A DNA stretch of 35,809 nt. Source: an uncultured Bacillota bacterium. GTDB lineage: Bacteria; Bacillota_I; Bacilli_A; Culicoidibacterales; ZOR0006. This document shows positions 22,964 to 35,590 of the stretch, one piece after another. The translations under genes and the position numbers were made by a program. Below the pieces are notes generated by a model, which was given only the letters and a program-made list of their open reading frames with translations, did not search any database and was not told where the DNA came from. Location of the stretch: NCBI GenBank assembly GCA_945956935.1, contig CAMFJD010000018.1:1-35809 (forward strand). The letters run 5' to 3'. Position 1 is the stretch's first letter, and every line of letters starts with the position of its first letter.

Positions 22964-22971
22964 AAGAATAT

Positions 22972-23108
22972 AAAGTTTTCTAGGGTTCCGCAATATTGTT
23001 GGTCTGGTCCAAGAGAGAACGCATAGGACGTATATAGTCTTATGTACACGGAAGGAGAAAAGCCTGGGAGATATGCGTATAGCGCTTATTTCTCAAGCTT
23101 TTTTTCAT
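22972..23108 (+). promoter_or_regulatory. ykkC-class riboswitch (guanidine-I type) with terminator-like end
   Basis: Blocks of the ykkC aptamer appear in the right order: TCTAGGGTTCCGC (from 22979), GGTCTGGTCCAAGAGAGAAC (from 23001) and ACGGAAGGAGAAAAGCCTGG (from 23048). The ykkC class includes guanidine-I sensors and relatives for ppGpp, PRPP and nucleotide diphosphates. The absence of an obvious extra 5' stem and the kind of gene controlled make guanidine the first choice. The end has GAGAAAAGC (23055-23063), able to pair with GCTT..TTTCTC (23085-23094), and a CTTATTTCTCAAG hairpin followed by seven T (23099-23105). That fits an ON-type transcription switch. The subtype should be confirmed with covariance models. 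Confidence 0.85.
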
Positions 23109-23128: not shown

Positions 23129-23836
23129 ATGAAAAAATTTATTGTTGAACAAGAGTTTTGGGAAGTGTTTCCTGATGTTAAAATAGGAATTATTGTAAGT
23201 AAAGATATTGAAAATATGTATAATAATGATGAATCAGAGTATAAAAAATTATTAGTAGATGCACAAATTACTGCGGAACAACATTTGCAGGCAGCTGTTT
23301 TTAGTGATAATCCGAGTATTAAAGTATGGAGACAAGCATTCCAGCAGTTTAAGACAAAAAAAGGTGCTCGTTCATCAATTGAAGCGTTATTAAAACGTGT
23401 ACAAAATGGACAGGGTGTAGGAACAATTAATCCACTAGTTGATATTTACAATTCAATCTCATTAAGCTATGGTTTTCCTTGCGGTGGAGAAGATATTGAT
23501 ACGTTTGTTGGGAATGTTTGTTTGACGAAAGCAAATGGTAAAGAAGCGTTTATTCCACTTGGAAGCGAAATAGATGCACCACCGTATGAAGGCGAAATCG
23601 TGTATAAAGATGATTGCGGTGCAATTTGTAGATGTTGGAATTGGCGAGAGTCTATTAGAACAATGTTGACCCCAAATACGACGAATGCTTTCTTGTGCTT
23701 AGAACTAGTCGATATTACAAGGGAAGCTGAGTTTCAAAAAGCATTACACGAGTTAGCTCATTTAGTTGAGACAAAATTAGGTGGAACGCATACAGTTATT
23801 GTGCTAGATCGTGAACATTCCACTATCAAATTATGA
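23129..23836 (+). CDS. stand-alone B3/B4 (PheRS-beta-like) tRNA-editing-domain protein (235 aa)
   Basis: Resembles the B3/B4 domain (PF03483) of bacterial phenylalanyl-tRNA synthetase beta subunits, which hydrolyses wrongly charged tRNA, but here with no synthetase attached. Conserved-looking parts are WRQAFQQFKTKKGARSSIEALLKRV near residue 70, NPLVDIYNSISLSYGFPCGGEDID near 99-122, and ICRCWNWRESIRTMLTPNT, where the family usually has a WR(D/E) motif. Stand-alone members include CtdA, a canavanyl-tRNA(Arg) deacylase. The ATG at 23129 is chosen because GAGGGAG precedes it; the longer frame back to 23042 runs through the riboswitch. The gene is the only one behind the riboswitch and is closed by a strong terminator. 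Confidence 0.85.
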   Translation: MKKFIVEQEFWEVFPDVKIGIIVSKDIENMYNNDESEYKKLLVDAQITAEQHLQAAVFSDNPSIKVWRQAFQQFKTKKGARSSIEALLKRVQNGQGVGTINPLVDIYNSISLSYGFPCGGEDIDTFVGNVCLTKANGKEAFIPLGSEIDAPPYEGEIVYKDDCGAICRCWNWRESIRTMLTPNTTNAFLCLELVDITREAEFQKALHELAHLVETKLGGTHTVIVLDREHSTIKL

Positions 23837-29052: not shown

Positions 29053-29100
29053 AAAAAGGCACAGAAGTCTTTGCATAGCAAATGAATTCAGTGCTTTTTT
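29053..29100. terminator. bidirectional terminator between prmA and the Crp/Fnr gene
   Basis: AAAAAGGCAC (29053-29062) and GTGCTTTTTT (29091-29100) pair with one bulge, and TTTGC/GCAAA forms an inner stem. The T run also encodes the lysine-rich end of the minus-strand regulator. Confidence 0.8.
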
Positions 29101-29777
29101 TTTGTATGTGTTGAAGATGTTTGCTGTAGTTCGCGTGGGAAATTGAGGAGAGTAATTAAGCCGCGATTCAAAGTGACATATCCTTCCTTTTCAAAATATT
29201 TAAGCATACGGCTCACTACTTCTCTAGCGCTTCCAAGGTGTTGAGCAACTTGTTCGTGTGTTAGTGTTAGTGTTAATGAATTGGTATAATTTGCTTGTTG
29301 TTGCAAAAAGAGCGCGAGACGGCGATCAAAGGTTTGAAAAATAATTTGATCAAGCACCCACATTATTTCAGATAAGCGTTGTTGGCTTATGTTCAGGAAA
29401 TGTTGCTGGATAGCAATGTTTTGTTCACTCATTTTTGCAATGACATAAGTTGGAATAATAATGAGCTCAAGTGATGACATTGCTTCAATTGTTGTAACAA
29501 AATTGATATTTTCAAACAGACAGGATACCGATAAAATACAATTATCTGTATCAGTTAGTTGAAATAATGTAATCTCGCGACCAGATTCGGAAGTCATAAA
29601 GACACGTAAAAATCCACGTTTGACGATAATCAGTCCATGACATTCATCGCTATCAAAGTGCAGGCGAGTTTTTTTTGCATAGTAGTGTATTTTAGTTTGC
29701 GAAATAAGGTGTTGTTGCTCTAGTGTAGTGAGTGTATTGAAAAAAGGTAGTTGAGATAAATAGGTATGTACTGACAT
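29088..29777 (-). CDS. Crp/Fnr-family transcription regulator (229 aa)
   Basis: The N-terminal cyclic-nucleotide-binding-like beta barrel (about 10-125) includes GLIIVKRGFLRVFMTSESGREITLFQL. The long dimer helix is NISQQRLSEIMWVLDQIIF, and the C-terminal Crp-type HTH is LTHEQVAQHLGSAREVVSRMLKYFEKEGYV. The Arg and Ser that bind cAMP in E. coli CRP are not evident and there is no N-terminal Fe-S Cys cluster, so the signal is something else. Cys46, Cys80 and Cys86 could be redox- or persulfide-responsive (inference). It is divergent from the persulfide-reductase operon. A perfect 17-bp palindrome lies 18 bp upstream of its start, suggesting autoregulation. Confidence 0.9.
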   Translation of the reverse strand: MSVHTYLSQLPFFNTLTTLEQQHLISQTKIHYYAKKTRLHFDSDECHGLIIVKRGFLRVFMTSESGREITLFQLTDTDNCILSVSCLFENINFVTTIEAMSSLELIIIPTYVIAKMSEQNIAIQQHFLNISQQRLSEIMWVLDQIIFQTFDRRLALFLQQQANYTNSLTLTLTHEQVAQHLGSAREVVSRMLKYFEKEGYVTLNRGLITLLNFPRELQQTSSTHTKKKH

Positions 29778-29794
29778 AGGGAGACTCTCCTGTA

Positions 29795-29811
29795 CTGTCT
29801 AAATTAGACAG
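29795..29811. promoter_or_regulatory. 17-bp palindrome, candidate Crp/Fnr operator 1
   Basis: CTGTCTAAATTAGACAG is a perfect palindrome around its central base. It lies 18 bp upstream of the regulator's start codon on the minus strand. Confidence 0.65.
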
Positions 29812-29918
29812 CTGTTAATTGCTTAAATACATGCTTCAGTATGCATGATAAAAACTGCTTTTATTTTAGTTTAAAGAAAACTCATGATTAAGTCGAATTA
29901 ATCTTCAATTAATCTTAT

Positions 29919-29935
29919 CTGTGACAAAGTTACAG
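29919..29935. promoter_or_regulatory. 17-bp palindrome, candidate Crp/Fnr operator 2
   Basis: CTGTGACAAAGTTACAG has the same length and the same CTGT-N9-ACAG outline as the palindrome at 29795-29811 and resembles general Crp/Fnr boxes. It lies 130 bp upstream of the reductase-rhodanese gene. Confidence 0.65.
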
Positions 29936-30064
29936 AACGTAGAAGTAAAAAAAGATAGGATATGGTTAAGTTTTACTACGCATATGTTATGTGAAAATAT
30001 GGTATATTCAAGAAACAGTAGTAAAAGGCATAGTGGACACAAATAATGAAAGAAGGAATTAAAA

Positions 30065-31756
30065 ATGGAAATCAGACGAAAAATTGTGATTATTGGTGGA
30101 GTAGCTGGCGGAGCCACGGCTGCAGCACGTTTACGACGATTGAATGAAAAAGATGAGATTATTATCTTTGAAAAAGATGAGTATATTTCATTTGCAAATT
30201 GTGGTTTACCATATTACATTGGTGGTGTAATTGAAGAACGAGAAAAACTACTCGTTCAGAGTATTGAAGGAATGAGTAAACGATTTAATTTGGACATCCG
30301 TAATTTTAGTGAAGTCACAGCAATTGATCCAATAGCAAAAAAAGTAACAGTGTTAAATCATCAAACGAAAGAAGTGTATGATGAAACATATAATATTCTT
30401 GTATTATCACCCGGAGCGAAACCAATTTGGCCATCATTACCAGGTATTGATCAAGCACATGTCTTTAAAGTCCGTAATATTCCTGATACAGATGCGATTT
30501 TTGACTTTATTGCAACACAACAACCCAAAACTGCTGTCGTTGTAGGTGGGGGATTCATCGGGATTGAAATGGCTGAAGCACTCGTAGAACGTGGATTACA
30601 AGTGACAATTGTTGATAAAAATAATCAGGTTTTACGTCCATTTGATATGGAAATGGCGGCAATTATCGAAAATGAACTAATAGATCATGGCGTTGTCCAA
30701 CATTTACAAGATGGGGTTGAATCTATTGTTGCAAATCAAGTGATATTGACATCTGGTCAAGTGATTGATGCTCAACTCGTCATTATGGCAATTGGAGTTG
30801 TGCCTGAAACAAAATTGGCTCAAATGGCAAACCTTAAGTTAGGAGTGACGGGTGCAATTGAAGTAAATGAACAACTTCAAACGTCAAATTCATCTATTTA
30901 TGCAATAGGAGATGCTATTGAGGTTAAGCATTATATTAGTGGACAAGCTACGAAAATACCATTGGCTTGGCCAGCAAATCGACAAGGGAGACTCGTTGCA
31001 GACCATATAAATGGTTATAATGTACGGTATAGTGGTACACTCGGAACATCAGTTGTTAAAGCATTTACCTTAACAGCAGCAGTAACAGGACTAAATGAGG
31101 AAGCGTTGAAAGTGCAAAATATCCCGTATAAAGCAATCCATATTCATCGTGCTAATCATGCAAGTTATTATCCAGGTGCGAATATAATTACGTTGAAATT
31201 ATTGTTTCAATCAGAAACAGGTGCTATTCTTGGAGCGCAGGCTGTGGGAGGAGATGGGACTGAAAAACGGATTGATGTCATTTCAACAGCAATAAAAGGA
31301 AAGTTGACTATTTTTGATTTGTCAGATTTAGAATTAGCGTATGCACCACCATTTTCAAGTGCAAAAGATCCTGTGAATATCGCGGGTTATGTTGCAACGA
31401 ATGTTTATGATGGTGAGAACGTAATTCACTGGCATCAAGTTGATAATCTTCTTGCGGATAAAGGGTGTTTTATTGATGTCCGTACACCAAATGAATATAG
31501 TCAAGGAAGCATTTCAACAGCTATTAATGTGCCACTTGATGACTTGCGAGAGTTCGTTCAAACGACAGATGTATGTAAAGAAATGCCAGTGTATATTTTC
31601 TGCCAAGTAGGTTTACGTGGTCATGCAGCAGTGTCTATTTTGAAGGATGCTGGATTTACACAAGTATTTAATCTATCTGGTGGATATAAAACATATAGTA
31701 CTGTTAGTACGAAACAGAAACAAGAGCAAAAGGAGGTGTTTCCATGTATGCTTTAA
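30065..31756 (+). CDS. CoA-disulfide/CoA-persulfide reductase fused to a rhodanese domain (563 aa)
   Basis: An FAD- and NAD(P)H-dependent pyridine-nucleotide-disulfide oxidoreductase. The N-terminal FAD motif is IVIIGGVAGGATAAARLRR. Cys46 in ISFANCGLPYYIGG is the single active-site Cys of CoA-disulfide reductases. The NAD(P)H motif is VVVGGGFIGIEMAEAL, and the second FAD motif is IYAIGDAIEV. After a dimerisation domain, a rhodanese domain (about 460-545) carries Cys513 in the loop CQVGLR. Such fusions (CoADR-RHD, Npsr, CoAPR) reduce CoA disulfide, persulfide or polysulfide and release sulfide. It starts after GAAGGAATT and overlaps the next rhodanese gene by 13 nt, so their translation is coupled. 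Confidence 0.92.
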   Translation: MEIRRKIVIIGGVAGGATAAARLRRLNEKDEIIIFEKDEYISFANCGLPYYIGGVIEEREKLLVQSIEGMSKRFNLDIRNFSEVTAIDPIAKKVTVLNHQTKEVYDETYNILVLSPGAKPIWPSLPGIDQAHVFKVRNIPDTDAIFDFIATQQPKTAVVVGGGFIGIEMAEALVERGLQVTIVDKNNQVLRPFDMEMAAIIENELIDHGVVQHLQDGVESIVANQVILTSGQVIDAQLVIMAIGVVPETKLAQMANLKLGVTGAIEVNEQLQTSNSSIYAIGDAIEVKHYISGQATKIPLAWPANRQGRLVADHINGYNVRYSGTLGTSVVKAFTLTAAVTGLNEEALKVQNIPYKAIHIHRANHASYYPGANIITLKLLFQSETGAILGAQAVGGDGTEKRIDVISTAIKGKLTIFDLSDLELAYAPPFSSAKDPVNIAGYVATNVYDGENVIHWHQVDNLLADKGCFIDVRTPNEYSQGSISTAINVPLDDLREFVQTTDVCKEMPVYIFCQVGLRGHAAVSILKDAGFTQVFNLSGGYKTYSTVSTKQKQEQKEVFPCML

Positions 31757-32124
31757 TTGGTGTAACAGTAGTTTTATTATTTATTTTTCTATTTGTACAA
31801 CGAAATATTCAAAATGTTCCACAAATGACTTGGGAGGAATTAGTACAACAGCAAAAAACGCAACAATTTCAATATATTGATGTCCGTACACCAGAAGAGT
31901 TTGAAAAAAAACATGTTTTACATTTCCAAAATATACCGCAATCACAGTTAATGTCACAAGTGAATCAATTAGATAAAAATTTACCAATTATTATTATGTG
32001 TGCAAGTGGGATGAGATCAGCACAAGCAGTAAGAATTTTCATAAAACATGAGTTTCATGCTTTCAATCTTCAAGGGGGGATTCAATCAATACCAATAGAA
32101 AATATCATAATAAAGAAAATATAG
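31744..32124 (+). CDS. membrane-anchored rhodanese-like sulfurtransferase (126 aa)
   Basis: Residues 2-18 form one hydrophobic helix (YALIGVTVVLLFIFLFV), followed by a rhodanese domain (about 28-120). The active loop is C86-A-S-G-M-R, and IDVRTPEEF and FNLQGGI are conserved rhodanese segments. It would carry sulfane sulfur as a Cys persulfide near the membrane. Which side the domain faces is uncertain; the Arg after the helix favours the cytoplasm. The AAAGGAGGTG ribosome site lies inside the preceding gene, and the coding regions overlap by 13 nt. It is probably a sulfur relay partner of the reductase fusion (inference). Confidence 0.88.
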   Translation: MYALIGVTVVLLFIFLFVQRNIQNVPQMTWEELVQQQKTQQFQYIDVRTPEEFEKKHVLHFQNIPQSQLMSQVNQLDKNLPIIIMCASGMRSAQAVRIFIKHEFHAFNLQGGIQSIPIENIIIKKI

Positions 32125-32171
32125 TCTACAGTTAAAAATATAAATTTCAAGAGAATAAAAGGAATGATAAG

Positions 32172-32465
32172 ATGACAGAAATAACTGTGCAAGCACTGCA
32201 AAAAATGATTGGAATAATAGAATTAATAGATGTTCGTGAATCAAATGAGTTTCACTGTGGACATATTCCGACTGCAAAAAATATACCAGTAGGCATAGCC
32301 ATCCAGCAAGCTGATGTGCTATTTTCGAAAGAAGAAACGTATTATATTGTGTGTCAGTCTGGCGGAAGAAGTGCACTAGTTGTAGAGCAATTGTTGTTAC
32401 AGGGGTATGATGCGGTGAACGTGCAAGGTGGAACATTTGCTTGGCCAGAAATGCTTGAATATTAA
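32172..32465 (+). CDS. single-domain cytoplasmic rhodanese (97 aa)
   Basis: A compact rhodanese without a membrane segment. It shows LIDVRESNEFHCGHIPTAKNIPVG and the active loop C61-Q-S-G-G-R, followed by VNVQGGTFAWPEM. It resembles GlpE/PspE-size proteins that move sulfane sulfur between thiols. It is the third rhodanese domain in the cluster; the three active loops (CQVGLR, CASGMR, CQSGGR) differ, which may mean different acceptors. It starts 47 nt after the previous gene and is followed by a terminator, so it ends the reductase operon. Confidence 0.9.
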   Translation: MTEITVQALQKMIGIIELIDVRESNEFHCGHIPTAKNIPVGIAIQQADVLFSKEETYYIVCQSGGRSALVVEQLLLQGYDAVNVQGGTFAWPEMLEY

Positions 32466-32481
32466 ATTATCCATATGGAAT

Positions 32482-32512
32482 AAGCAACAGATAATGTTGC
32501 TTTATTTGTTTT
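32482..32512 (+). terminator. intrinsic terminator after the rhodanese operon
   Basis: AAGCAAC (32482-32488) pairs with GTTGCTT (32496-32502), followed by a T-rich tail (TATTTGTTTT). Confidence 0.7.
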
Positions 32513-32535
32513 AAACAAATAAATATGTAAAATGT

Positions 32536-32565
32536 TTGACACATAGATGGATGTTGATATATAAT
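32536..32565 (+). promoter_or_regulatory. strong sigma-A promoter of the cystine importer unit
   Basis: A perfect TTGACA (32536-32541) and a perfect TATAAT (32560-32565) are separated by 18 nt. About 180 nt of leader follow before the importer gene. Confidence 0.85.
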
Positions 32566-32629
32566 GGCAGTGCTTGGAAGTGCTTAGTACGATATATGCT
32601 AGTGAATTTTGAAAAAAAGGGGAAAAGCA

Positions 32630-32707
32630 ATGAGAAAAAAATATTTTTTACAAAAGATGCTGACAAGTATCATGCGAGCACAGCACCGATGTTGTCAAAT
32701 AGGGTAA
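32630..32707 (+). CDS. Cys-codon leader peptide (25 aa), candidate attenuator of the cystine importer
   Basis: A short ORF behind the promoter, with AAGGGGA 9 nt before its ATG. The peptide starts MRKKYFLQKM and ends AQHRCCQIG, with adjacent TGT TGT codons (32690-32695) three codons before the last sense codon. The next gene imports cystine. TGACAA (32661-32666) can pair with TTGTCA (32692-32697), and that 3' arm covers the second Cys codon, so a ribosome waiting for Cys-tRNA would open the hairpin. No T-rich terminator lies between the ORF and tcyP, so control may act on translation or RNA stability. Cys-rich leader peptides are known in actinobacteria. Its assignment here is inference from position, ribosome site and codons. 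Confidence 0.6.
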   Translation: MRKKYFLQKMLTSIMRAQHRCCQIG

Positions 32708-32749
32708 ATGTAATCTGATTTAAAAATAGGATAGAAAAGAGGAAAAAAG

Positions 32750-34159
32750 ATGTTTACAGGACCATTTTTTGAACAATTTTTATTTATTACTAGCCCAATG
32801 ACAATCATTGCGATTGCAATACTTATTGGGGCATTTATATTTATGTTTATGTTGCAAAAGAAACGTGTGAAGTTTTCAACACGAATGTTTATTGCATTAG
32901 GACTAGCAATTGGACTTGGAGTAGCACTTCAATTAATTGCAGGATTACCGGCAGACCCTTCAACGATAACGTGGTTGGATGAAACCAGAACATGGTATAG
33001 CTTATTTGGAAGTGGTTTTACAAAGTTACTTCAAATGCTAGTCATTCCGATTGTATTTATTTCAATTGTTCGCGTTGTTATGAATTTAGAAGGTCAGAAT
33101 CTAGGTAAAATGACTGGAAGAACAATTGCTTGGATGTTGGGAACAACGGCTGTTGCTGCAGTGGTCGGAATTGTGTTAGCAAATGCTTTCCAACTAGGTC
33201 AAGGATTAGAATTAGCGTCGTCATCAGTAGAACCTAAGGAAGTAACAACACTTGTAACAACGATGTTGAATTTAATTCCAAGCAATCCAATTGCAATTAT
33301 GAGTGAAGGAAATGTCATTGCTTTAGTTATTTTTGCTTCATTTATTGGAATTGCGACGATGCGTATGGGAAAACGCAAACCGGAAGTTATCGCGCCGTTT
33401 AAAGATTTAATTGAAGCAGCATATCAAATTATTATGAGTGTTGCGATGACAATTATTAAATTAATGCCATATGGTGTCATCGCTTTACTAGCAGGAACAA
33501 TTGTTGGACGTGGATTAGATGCGATTTTGTCAGTTGGAATGGTGGTCGTTGTGATTTATTTAGCGATTGTGCTTCAATTTATGATTCATATGGGTATACT
33601 TTCAGTACATGGTTTAAATCCAGTGAGCTATTTACGTAAAGGGTATGAACCATTAGTACTTGCATTTACATCACGTTCGAGTATGGGGACATTACCAGTA
33701 ACAGTAGAGACACTAACTGAAAAATTGGGTGTAAATGGAGCAACAGCTAACCTTGTATCAAGTCTTGGAACGACAATGGGAATGAATGGATGTGCAGGTA
33801 TTTATCCAGCTGTTTTAGCAGTCATGTTAGCACGAATGACAGGAATTCCAATGGATGCACAATTTTATGTGTTGCTTGTGGTCGTTGTGACATTAGGATC
33901 TGTAGGTATTGCCGGAATACCGGGAACAGCTACAGTCTCAGCGTCAGTTACTTTAAATGGTGTTGGTCTTGGCTCAGCATTTAGCTATATTGGTCCAGTT
34001 TTAGGAATTGATCCTATTTTAGATATGGGACGCACAATGTTAAATGTAAATGGAACAATGGTAACTGCGGTAGTCGTTGATAAATCATTAGGGACACTAG
34101 ACATTGAGAAATTCCATTCGAAAGATCAAGTGTTTGCTGAGGATATTGAAGTTGCATAA
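32750..34159 (+). CDS. tcyP: TcyP-type L-cystine:cation symporter (469 aa)
   Basis: A member of the dicarboxylate/amino acid:cation symporter family, in the TcyP branch that imports cystine. Hydrophobic helices run from the N-terminus (PMTIIAIAILIGAFIFMFML) to the re-entrant regions. Conserved segments are KLLQMLVIPIVFISIVRVVMNL near residue 95, AFTSRSSMGTLPVTVE near 305 (the SSS-like helical hairpin 1 region), TMGMNGCAGIYPAVLAVMLA, and IDPILDMGRTMLNVNGTMVTAVV near 425, where the family binds substrate and Na+. The ribosome site is AGAGGAAAAAAG. Position between persulfide-handling genes and a CoA-disulfide reductase, plus the Cys-codon leader, supports cystine as substrate. Confidence 0.92.
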   Translation: MFTGPFFEQFLFITSPMTIIAIAILIGAFIFMFMLQKKRVKFSTRMFIALGLAIGLGVALQLIAGLPADPSTITWLDETRTWYSLFGSGFTKLLQMLVIPIVFISIVRVVMNLEGQNLGKMTGRTIAWMLGTTAVAAVVGIVLANAFQLGQGLELASSSVEPKEVTTLVTTMLNLIPSNPIAIMSEGNVIALVIFASFIGIATMRMGKRKPEVIAPFKDLIEAAYQIIMSVAMTIIKLMPYGVIALLAGTIVGRGLDAILSVGMVVVVIYLAIVLQFMIHMGILSVHGLNPVSYLRKGYEPLVLAFTSRSSMGTLPVTVETLTEKLGVNGATANLVSSLGTTMGMNGCAGIYPAVLAVMLARMTGIPMDAQFYVLLVVVVTLGSVGIAGIPGTATVSASVTLNGVGLGSAFSYIGPVLGIDPILDMGRTMLNVNGTMVTAVVVDKSLGTLDIEKFHSKDQVFAEDIEVA

Positions 34160-34189
34160 ACTTCATAAAATAAGTGAAAATCAATGAAT

Positions 34190-34240
34190 AATAGCATCCC
34201 TCCATTGTTTTGAAAATGTAGAAGGATGCTATTTTATTTT
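34190..34240 (+). terminator. intrinsic terminator after tcyP
   Basis: AATAGCATCC (34190-34199) pairs with GGATGCTATT (34224-34233), followed by TTATTTT. Confidence 0.8.
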
Positions 34241-34261
34241 AGAAAGAAATGAGTGATAGTG

Positions 34262-35590
34262 ATGAAAGTAGTTATTATTGGTGGAATTGCAGCAGGAGCG
34301 ACAGCAGCAGCGAAGCTAAAACGTGTGAATAAAAAAGCTGAGATTATCATGTATGACAAAGGAAAATACGTTTCATTTGGAGCATGTGGGTTACCATATT
34401 TTATCGGTGGGCAGTTTGACAATCCACAAAATATGATTAGTCGTACACCAGAACAATTTGAAAAAACAGGAATTATCGCCAAAACAGAACATAACGTGAC
34501 TAAAATAGATGTTGAAAACAAGCGTGTATATGGAGTTGATTTAACAACTCAAATACCTTTTGAAACAACATATGATACATTATTAATTGCAACAGGGGCA
34601 ACGCCAATATTACCTAATTTGCCAGGAATACAGCTATCTGGAATATATACAGCAACAAAACTTGAAGATGGTGAGATGTTGAGAAATCAATTAGATGCAA
34701 TTGAAACTGTAACAATTGTTGGTGCTGGATTTATTGGGTTGGAATTGGCGGAGCAACTTCATGAACTAGGGAAAAAAGTACGGATTATTGAATTGAGTAA
34801 TACGGTAATGGGAAAAGTGTTTGATTCTGAAATAAGTGAACATATTGCCCAGGAAATTCGAAGAAAAGGGCTTGATTTACATTTAGAAGAATCTGTTATA
34901 GGTTTTGAAGGTGAGGGGAAAGTAACTCATATTGTTACAAAAAAAGCTCGTTATGAAACGGATGCTGTTATTGTTGCAATTGGATTCAAGCCAAATACTC
35001 AATTAGTTGATGGATTGGGTATGGAACAACTGGAAAATGGCGCGATTATTGTAAGTCAGCAAGGAAAAACCTCTATTCCTGATATTTATGCTGTTGGAGA
35101 TTGTGCAACCGTGCACAATAAACTGTTGAATGAGCCGATGTATTTACCACTCGCTACGACGGCAAATAAATTGGGACGAATTGTAGGAGAAGTGATTGGT
35201 GGACTAGATAGTGCTTTTCCAGGTATGCTTGGAAGTTCAGCGATACGTTTCTTAGGAATTGAAGCAGCAGCTACAGGATTAACAGAGCAAATGGCTCAAC
35301 TGAAGGGGATAGATTATAAAACAACAGTAATAAAAGATAATGATCATACAAGTTATGTGAAAGGTGCAGTTGAGTTAACAGTAAAATTAGTATATCATGC
35401 ACAAACGAAAGTCCTTTTAGGTGGACAAATAGTAGGACCAAAAAATGCTGTTCTACGAGTTGATGTTTTGGCAGCAGCAATTTATAAAGAAATGACAACT
35501 GATGAATTAGGATTGTTAGATTTAGTTTATTCTCCTCCGTTTGCAAGAACATGGGATATCTTAAACGTTGCAGGAAACGTAAGTAAATAA
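34262..35590 (+). CDS. CoA-disulfide reductase-like FAD/NAD(P)H oxidoreductase (442 aa)
   Basis: Same fold as the reductase part of the 30065-31756 gene but without a rhodanese domain. The FAD motif is VVIIGGIAAGATAAAKLKR. Cys42 lies in VSFGACGLPYFIGG, which resembles CoA-disulfide reductases (SFxxCxLPY) more than water-forming NADH oxidases (SFLxCGM). The NAD(P)H motif is VTIVGAGFIGLELAEQL, and the second FAD motif is IYAVGDCATV. The C-terminal domain has the YSPPFARTWD segment that supplies the Tyr/Tyr pair region in CoADR. ATG 34262 is used rather than GTG 34253; the ribosome site (GAGTGAT) is weak. NADH oxidase or peroxidase activity remains possible. Repeat family 1 copies follow its stop codon. 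Confidence 0.88.
   Translation: MKVVIIGGIAAGATAAAKLKRVNKKAEIIMYDKGKYVSFGACGLPYFIGGQFDNPQNMISRTPEQFEKTGIIAKTEHNVTKIDVENKRVYGVDLTTQIPFETTYDTLLIATGATPILPNLPGIQLSGIYTATKLEDGEMLRNQLDAIETVTIVGAGFIGLELAEQLHELGKKVRIIELSNTVMGKVFDSEISEHIAQEIRRKGLDLHLEESVIGFEGEGKVTHIVTKKARYETDAVIVAIGFKPNTQLVDGLGMEQLENGAIIVSQQGKTSIPDIYAVGDCATVHNKLLNEPMYLPLATTANKLGRIVGEVIGGLDSAFPGMLGSSAIRFLGIEAAATGLTEQMAQLKGIDYKTTVIKDNDHTSYVKGAVELTVKLVYHAQTKVLLGGQIVGPKNAVLRVDVLAAAIYKEMTTDELGLLDLVYSPPFARTWDILNVAGNVSK

Follow-up and report, generated by a model that had tools for sequence, protein, structure and literature searches.

The stretch of DNA analysed here (henceforth referred to as the window) comprises 35,809 nucleotides and represents contig 18 of a 1.84-Mb genome with a GC content of 34%. 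Among the genomes compared, the only congener was Firmicutes bacterium ZOR0006 (henceforth ZOR0006), and both species are gut-associated Firmicutes. The gene of interest, tcyP, encodes a symporter (Table 1) whose relatives annotated as 'L-cystine transporter' are 37–40% identical to it and whose best matches on plasmids carry the name glutamate or dicarboxylate symporter; cystine is its likely substrate, as judged from sequence similarity. The gene is part of a sulfur-redox cluster (29088–35590) that contains genes for a Crp/Fnr-type regulator, a CoA-disulfide reductase with a rhodanese-like tail, two small rhodanese-like proteins, TcyP and a second CoA-disulfide reductase. Upstream of tcyP we found the TTGACA/TATAAT promoter that a preliminary description of this DNA had called perfect, with a spacer of 18 bp, followed by the 25-codon open reading frame (ORF) that had been reported to possess a ribosome site of its own: the ORF and its Shine-Dalgarno (SD) region are both present, and AAGGGGAAAAGCA precedes the ATG. 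As had also been described, two adjacent TGT codons (codons 21 and 22; 32690–32695) are located three codons ahead of the last sense codon. In the window, these Cys codons are 60 nt from tcyP and the stop codon of the leader ORF is ~43 nt from it. Elsewhere in the window, a Guanidine-I riboswitch (Rfam RF00442, 87 bits; 22969–23072, + strand) is located ahead of a gene (23129–23836, + strand) encoding a B3/4-domain protein (PF03483) to which no function is assigned and which, to our knowledge, is not among the guanidine-linked genes.

Table 1. Features of the tcyP locus, in positions of the window.
Feature	Position	Strand	Remarks
Promoter, TTGACA-N18-TATAAT	32536–32565	+	12/12 consensus
SD region of the leader ORF, AAGGGGAA	32617–32624	+	sequence; ZOR0006 equivalent AAAGGAAAGG
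Leader ORF, ATG-led, 25 codons, MRKKYFLQKMLTSIMRAQHRCCQIG and stop	32630–32707	+	predicted ORF; orthologue in ZOR0006
Weak hairpin, arms 32661–32666 (TGACAA) and 32692–32697 (TTGTCA)	32661–32697	+	judged not significant
CGA TGT TGT (Arg20 Cys21 Cys22)	32687–32695	+	conserved heart of the leader
SD site of tcyP, GAGGAAA	32739–32745	+	GAGGAAA likewise before ZOR0006 tcyP
tcyP-like gene, SDF-family symporter, 469 aa	32750–34159	+	PF00375 at 352 bits

The TcyP orthologue of ZOR0006 is 74% identical to that of the window; the gene 5′ of tcyP differs between the two genomes, and tcyP and the CoA-disulfide reductase gene that follows it have stayed together. The first codons of tcyP (32753–32780) are identical at 26 of 28 nt, compared with 72% across the whole gene, and in the window a U-run in these codons pairs with the tcyP start codon in the predicted fold. 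As in the window, the ZOR0006 promoter matches the consensus at 12/12 positions around an 18-bp spacer, and between it and tcyP there is an orthologous SD-led ORF of 40 codons (MLDVFQQQNRHSVITHTRNRCCTWGILSEYKTEKRGKILC, at L003:1385–1507), so that in both species a predicted SD-led ORF occupies the position of a leader peptide. When the two peptides were aligned by position, only M1, Q8, I14 and R20-C21-C22 matched among 25 residues. Arg-Cys-Cys (RCC) thus occupies exactly codons 20–22 in both ORFs, with the Cys codons 56 nt from tcyP in ZOR0006, and the sole difference within CGA-TGT-TGY (8 of 9 nt identical) is the synonymous change of TGT to TGC. Neutral sites between the two species are near saturation, as judged from the fourfold-degenerate third positions of tcyP, 75 of 172 of which are identical (44%, with 34% expected from composition). 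Most other segments of the leader are 31–48% identical and the stretch from the tcyP SD to the ATG is 55% identical; what stands out from this diverged leader is the promoter (26/30) and RCC (8/9). The retention of RCC while the peptide drifts, upstream of the gene for a putative cystine transporter, is the codon pattern of a leader peptide. The preliminary description had expected the regulatory codons to be near the end of the ORF, which is true of the window but not of ZOR0006, where they are codons 21–22 of 40. Overall, the conserved Cys-codon leader is likely to be real, the conservation being that of one comparison between two species, with covariation beyond its reach.

We then compared TcyP loci outside the genus. 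Contig searches with a TcyP alignment as the query recovered 80 loci (ZOR0006 and 79 others), whereas a single TcyP protein as the query gave no match, and ~20 further loci came from searches of the order, class and phylum. No comparable leader was detected at the ~100 TcyP homologues outside the genus that were obtained in these searches, and within these collections the Cys-codon leader is therefore restricted to the genus. The check proposed in the preliminary description, namely whether a short ORF retains its tandem Cys codons while the rest of its peptide drifts, is thus positive for ZOR0006 (RCC at codons 20–22) but negative for the ~100 homologues outside the genus. At one locus (L286) an SD-led ORF, MNLVICCKTQPTTNTHMCSFTHVK, which contains adjacent Cys codons, is found 127 nt upstream of the gene for a TcyP homologue that is 35% identical and contains an in-frame TGA; this upstream ORF (uORF) is probably a product of chance, since its rate is as expected by chance.

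The preliminary description had further proposed that a ribosome stalled for want of Cys-tRNA opens a hairpin, one arm of which overlaps the second Cys codon, and so raises tcyP expression. The arm (32692–32697) can indeed pair, to form a helix of 6 bp with a 25-nt loop and a predicted energy of about −2.8 kcal/mol; however, helices touching the Cys codons were equally long in 198 of 200 shuffled sequences, and in ZOR0006 the sequence after RCC no longer yields this hairpin arm, and the hairpin is not conserved. The leader of the window is predicted to fold no better than its shuffles (z −0.91), and the same applies to that of ZOR0006. When a ribosome stalled at the Cys codons was modelled, the predicted unpaired state of the tcyP SD changed from 0.64 to 0.67 in the window and from 0.75 to 0.73 in ZOR0006. 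We therefore rejected the opening of this weak, unconserved hairpin as the regulatory step, given that in both species the tcyP ribosome site is predicted to be as accessible with the modelled stall as without it. Predicted folds of the two species revealed no conserved RNA structure by which this ribosome site is linked to the leader. No intrinsic terminator was detected between 32566 and 32750 or, on the coding strand, in the ZOR0006 leader, in agreement with the earlier statement that no T-run terminator separates the ORF from tcyP, and the leaders are thus not transcription attenuators of the intrinsic type. Similarly, no protein matched Rho (TIGR00767) above the cut-off in either genome (the window genome includes ~75 kb of N), and a Rho-dependent attenuator was set aside as Rho was not found. 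Transcription termination, whether intrinsic or Rho-dependent, is thus unlikely to be the output. The earlier suggestion that the mechanism is translational or acts through RNA decay has gained strength from the failure to find Rho and from the presence of two RNase J enzymes in each of the two genomes.

These results bear directly on whether the leader could be a classical translational attenuator of the erm or cat type, in which the tcyP ribosome site would be hidden by folding of the leader until a ribosome stalling at the Cys codons made it accessible. Translation would be a natural output where neither a terminator nor Rho is found, and the polycysteine leaders of Mycobacterium have been described as translation attenuators (PMC13236596); but no alternative structure hiding the tcyP ribosome site was predicted, the tcyP SD is largely unpaired in both predicted folds and unaltered by the modelled stall, the leaders fold no better than shuffles and the hairpin at the Cys codons is unconserved, all of which make such an attenuator unlikely. 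In a related arrangement, ribosomes leaving or crossing the leader ORF would set the initiation of tcyP, and a stall 50–60 nt upstream would free the site. The ZOR0006 leader ORF does extend across the tcyP ribosome site, with its stop codon inside ATGTTAA, and, to judge from the distances, both species would have room for a stalled ribosome next to an initiating one. However, the window has no such overlap, its ORF stopping ~43 nt before tcyP, and as the overlap is not conserved we regard coupling or occlusion of this kind as quite unlikely.

We also considered whether CGATGTTG and the promoter spacer could be bound by an unknown regulator, either as operators in the DNA or as sites in the RNA, with the ORF being incidental. 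The spacer is conserved at 14 of 18 positions, its conserved 3′ half, ATGTTGATA, preceding the −10 element, and it has ATGTTG in common with the RCC site. Against this, the readable sequence of the window genome has CGATGTTG between called genes only at the tcyP leader and contains no other exact copy of the promoter motif; further, in both species CGATGTTG sits within an SD-led ORF and has an identical codon number, the single change in its nine bases being synonymous, so that we consider this explanation very unlikely. A transcription factor may, to judge from its conservation, act at the promoter spacer as well. All genome-wide statements on the window genome are bounded by crude gene calls and by ~75 kb that reads N (72 kb of contig 5, and contig 52 of 2.9 kb).

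That Arg-Cys-Cys is a nascent-peptide arrest motif, or one that senses thiols or metals, instead of a sensor of Cys-tRNA appears highly improbable: translational copper sensing by a nascent exported protein has been reported in another bacterium (PMC9973294), and thiol and rhodanese genes adjoin tcyP, but few residues are kept (M1, Q8, I14 and RCC being the only matches by position), and it is generally understood that adjacent regulatory codons ahead of the gene for a probable transporter of that amino acid fit tRNA sensing better. The least probable of the readings considered is that both species inherited a meaningless short ORF by chance, which is favoured by the comparison being of two species only and by the frequency of short SD-led ORFs (about 25–29% of shuffled leaders), but which is at odds with the persistence of RCC, of its codon number and of the promoter despite near-saturated neutral sites. 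A uORF with adjacent Cys codons arose in 22 of 4000 shuffled window leaders and in 19 of 4000 shuffled ZOR0006 leaders, and these codons fell at positions 21–22 in 0/4000 and 1/4000, respectively; in the readable window genome, adjacent Cys codons are present in 2 of the 118 SD-led ATG uORFs upstream of genes. With regard to a wider regulon, the readable genome contained no second SD-led ATG uORF with RCC ahead of any recognisable sulfur gene, and the cysKE operon (C7:4727–6155) lacks a Cys leader in both species, which indicates that the leader is import-specific among the genes examined. When four genomes were searched for the pattern of an SD, a uORF and RCC, the genus members were comparable to the reversed control apart from the tcyP leaders, and genome G003 yielded more.

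In Firmicutes, amino-acid shortage is generally taken to be sensed chiefly through T-boxes and protein regulators, ribosome-mediated leaders playing a minor part. Firmicute cysteine genes are usually controlled by CymR (a member of the Rrf2 family), LysR-type regulators or cysteine T-boxes (PMC2940859). In neither of the two genomes did any protein exceed the family cut-off for Rrf2/CymR. T-boxes gave 13 matches in each genome; the leader is not a T-box riboswitch, since the window contains no Rfam T-box, and none of the 13 in the window genome stands before a recognisable cysteine gene, as read by eye.

From what is known of leader peptides and from the conservation of RCC, we infer that Cys-tRNA is sensed at codons 21–22, and this sensing half of the proposal is, on sequence grounds, well supported for a two-species comparison. 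A shortage of Cys-tRNA would cause a ribosome to stall at these codons, and more cystine importer would be made. The output would be post-transcriptional, a step that we hold with lower confidence than the stall. The likeliest single route would be one in which the stalled ribosome acts as a 5′ roadblock that shields the downstream mRNA from RNase J, as in stall leaders of the ermC type, and the next likeliest a direct effect on tcyP translation. In Bacillus subtilis, 5′ roadblocks such as a ribosome stalled near the 5′ end stabilise the mRNA downstream (PMC3997798). Given these roadblocks, two RNase J enzymes and the lack of any terminator, Rho or switch in our searches, protection of the mRNA would be the simplest output that fits the anatomy. 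The ZOR0006 leader, which enters the tcyP start, suggests a direct effect on initiation, whereas the window leader, with its earlier stop, does not. Overall, we assign a probability of roughly 0.64 to the reading that the leader ORF is a sensor of charged Cys-tRNA at which a stall would raise importer output post-transcriptionally, most likely via protection from RNase J. More tentatively, and with considerable doubt, we suggest that a hungry ribosome near the 5′ end might merely shield the importer mRNA from RNase J, without the need for an RNA switch or terminator, in a lineage without CymR or a cysteine T-box. If the proposal is true, a tandem-Cys leader before a cystine importer extends Cys leaders beyond Actinobacteria and Alphaproteobacteria, and it becomes testable whether a stalled ribosome alone, without switch, terminator or Rho, regulates a metabolic gene via mRNA decay. 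A literature search, conducted mostly outside subscription papers, returned no description of a Cys leader before tcyP or in any Firmicute.

Several known systems invite comparison. The leader ORFs of Mycobacterium cys operons contain Cys runs and no conserved hairpins (Seliverstov 2005, PMC1262725), and polycysteine leader ORFs were also described in Mycobacterium by Canestrari 2020, as cited in PMC13236596 and PMC9094748. Like the tcyP leader, they have adjacent Cys codons in a short ORF before a cysteine-supply gene and no conserved terminator hairpin; unlike it, they are leaderless ORFs of Actinobacteria that precede cys operons, whereas here an SD-led ORF precedes a cystine importer gene in a Firmicute. 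Rho, suggested as a possibility for the mycobacterial leaders, was not found in the two genomes studied here. In Rhodobacterales, uORFC-8-2 before cysS is marked by two prominent stems and ends in a U-run, which fits an intrinsic terminator (PMC8632094). Both it and the tcyP leader have tandem Cys codons whose position within a short uORF hardly varies, but the tcyP leader has neither stems nor terminator and the gene controlled by uORFC-8-2 encodes a synthetase, for which reasons we rejected membership of this family. The ermC leader is antibiotic-responsive and contains a defined hairpin switch. In this Gram-positive example, as proposed here, downstream expression rises when a ribosome stalls in an SD-led leader ORF, and the ermC stall sequence also stabilises mRNA in Bacillus (PMC3997798); the difference is that the proposed signal for tcyP would be a hungry codon and that no switch was found in its leader. 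Cysteine T-boxes and CymR (PMC2940859) likewise serve to raise the supply of cyst(e)ine in response to a shortage of cysteine or charged Cys-tRNA, but a T-box binds the tRNA directly and CymR is a protein, and neither was found for cysteine here (for T-boxes, among the genes of the window genome). The T-box genes of the window genome, as assigned by eye and from specifier positions, are tyrS, metG, leuS, asnA, serS, pheS, ileS and thrS, together with genes for asparaginyl-type, aspartyl-type and glycyl synthetases and a doubly T-boxed amino-acid ABC transporter. In the two tandem T-boxes ahead of an amino-acid ABC transporter gene (contig 20:18178–18698), both specifiers look, by eye, like CGC (arginine).
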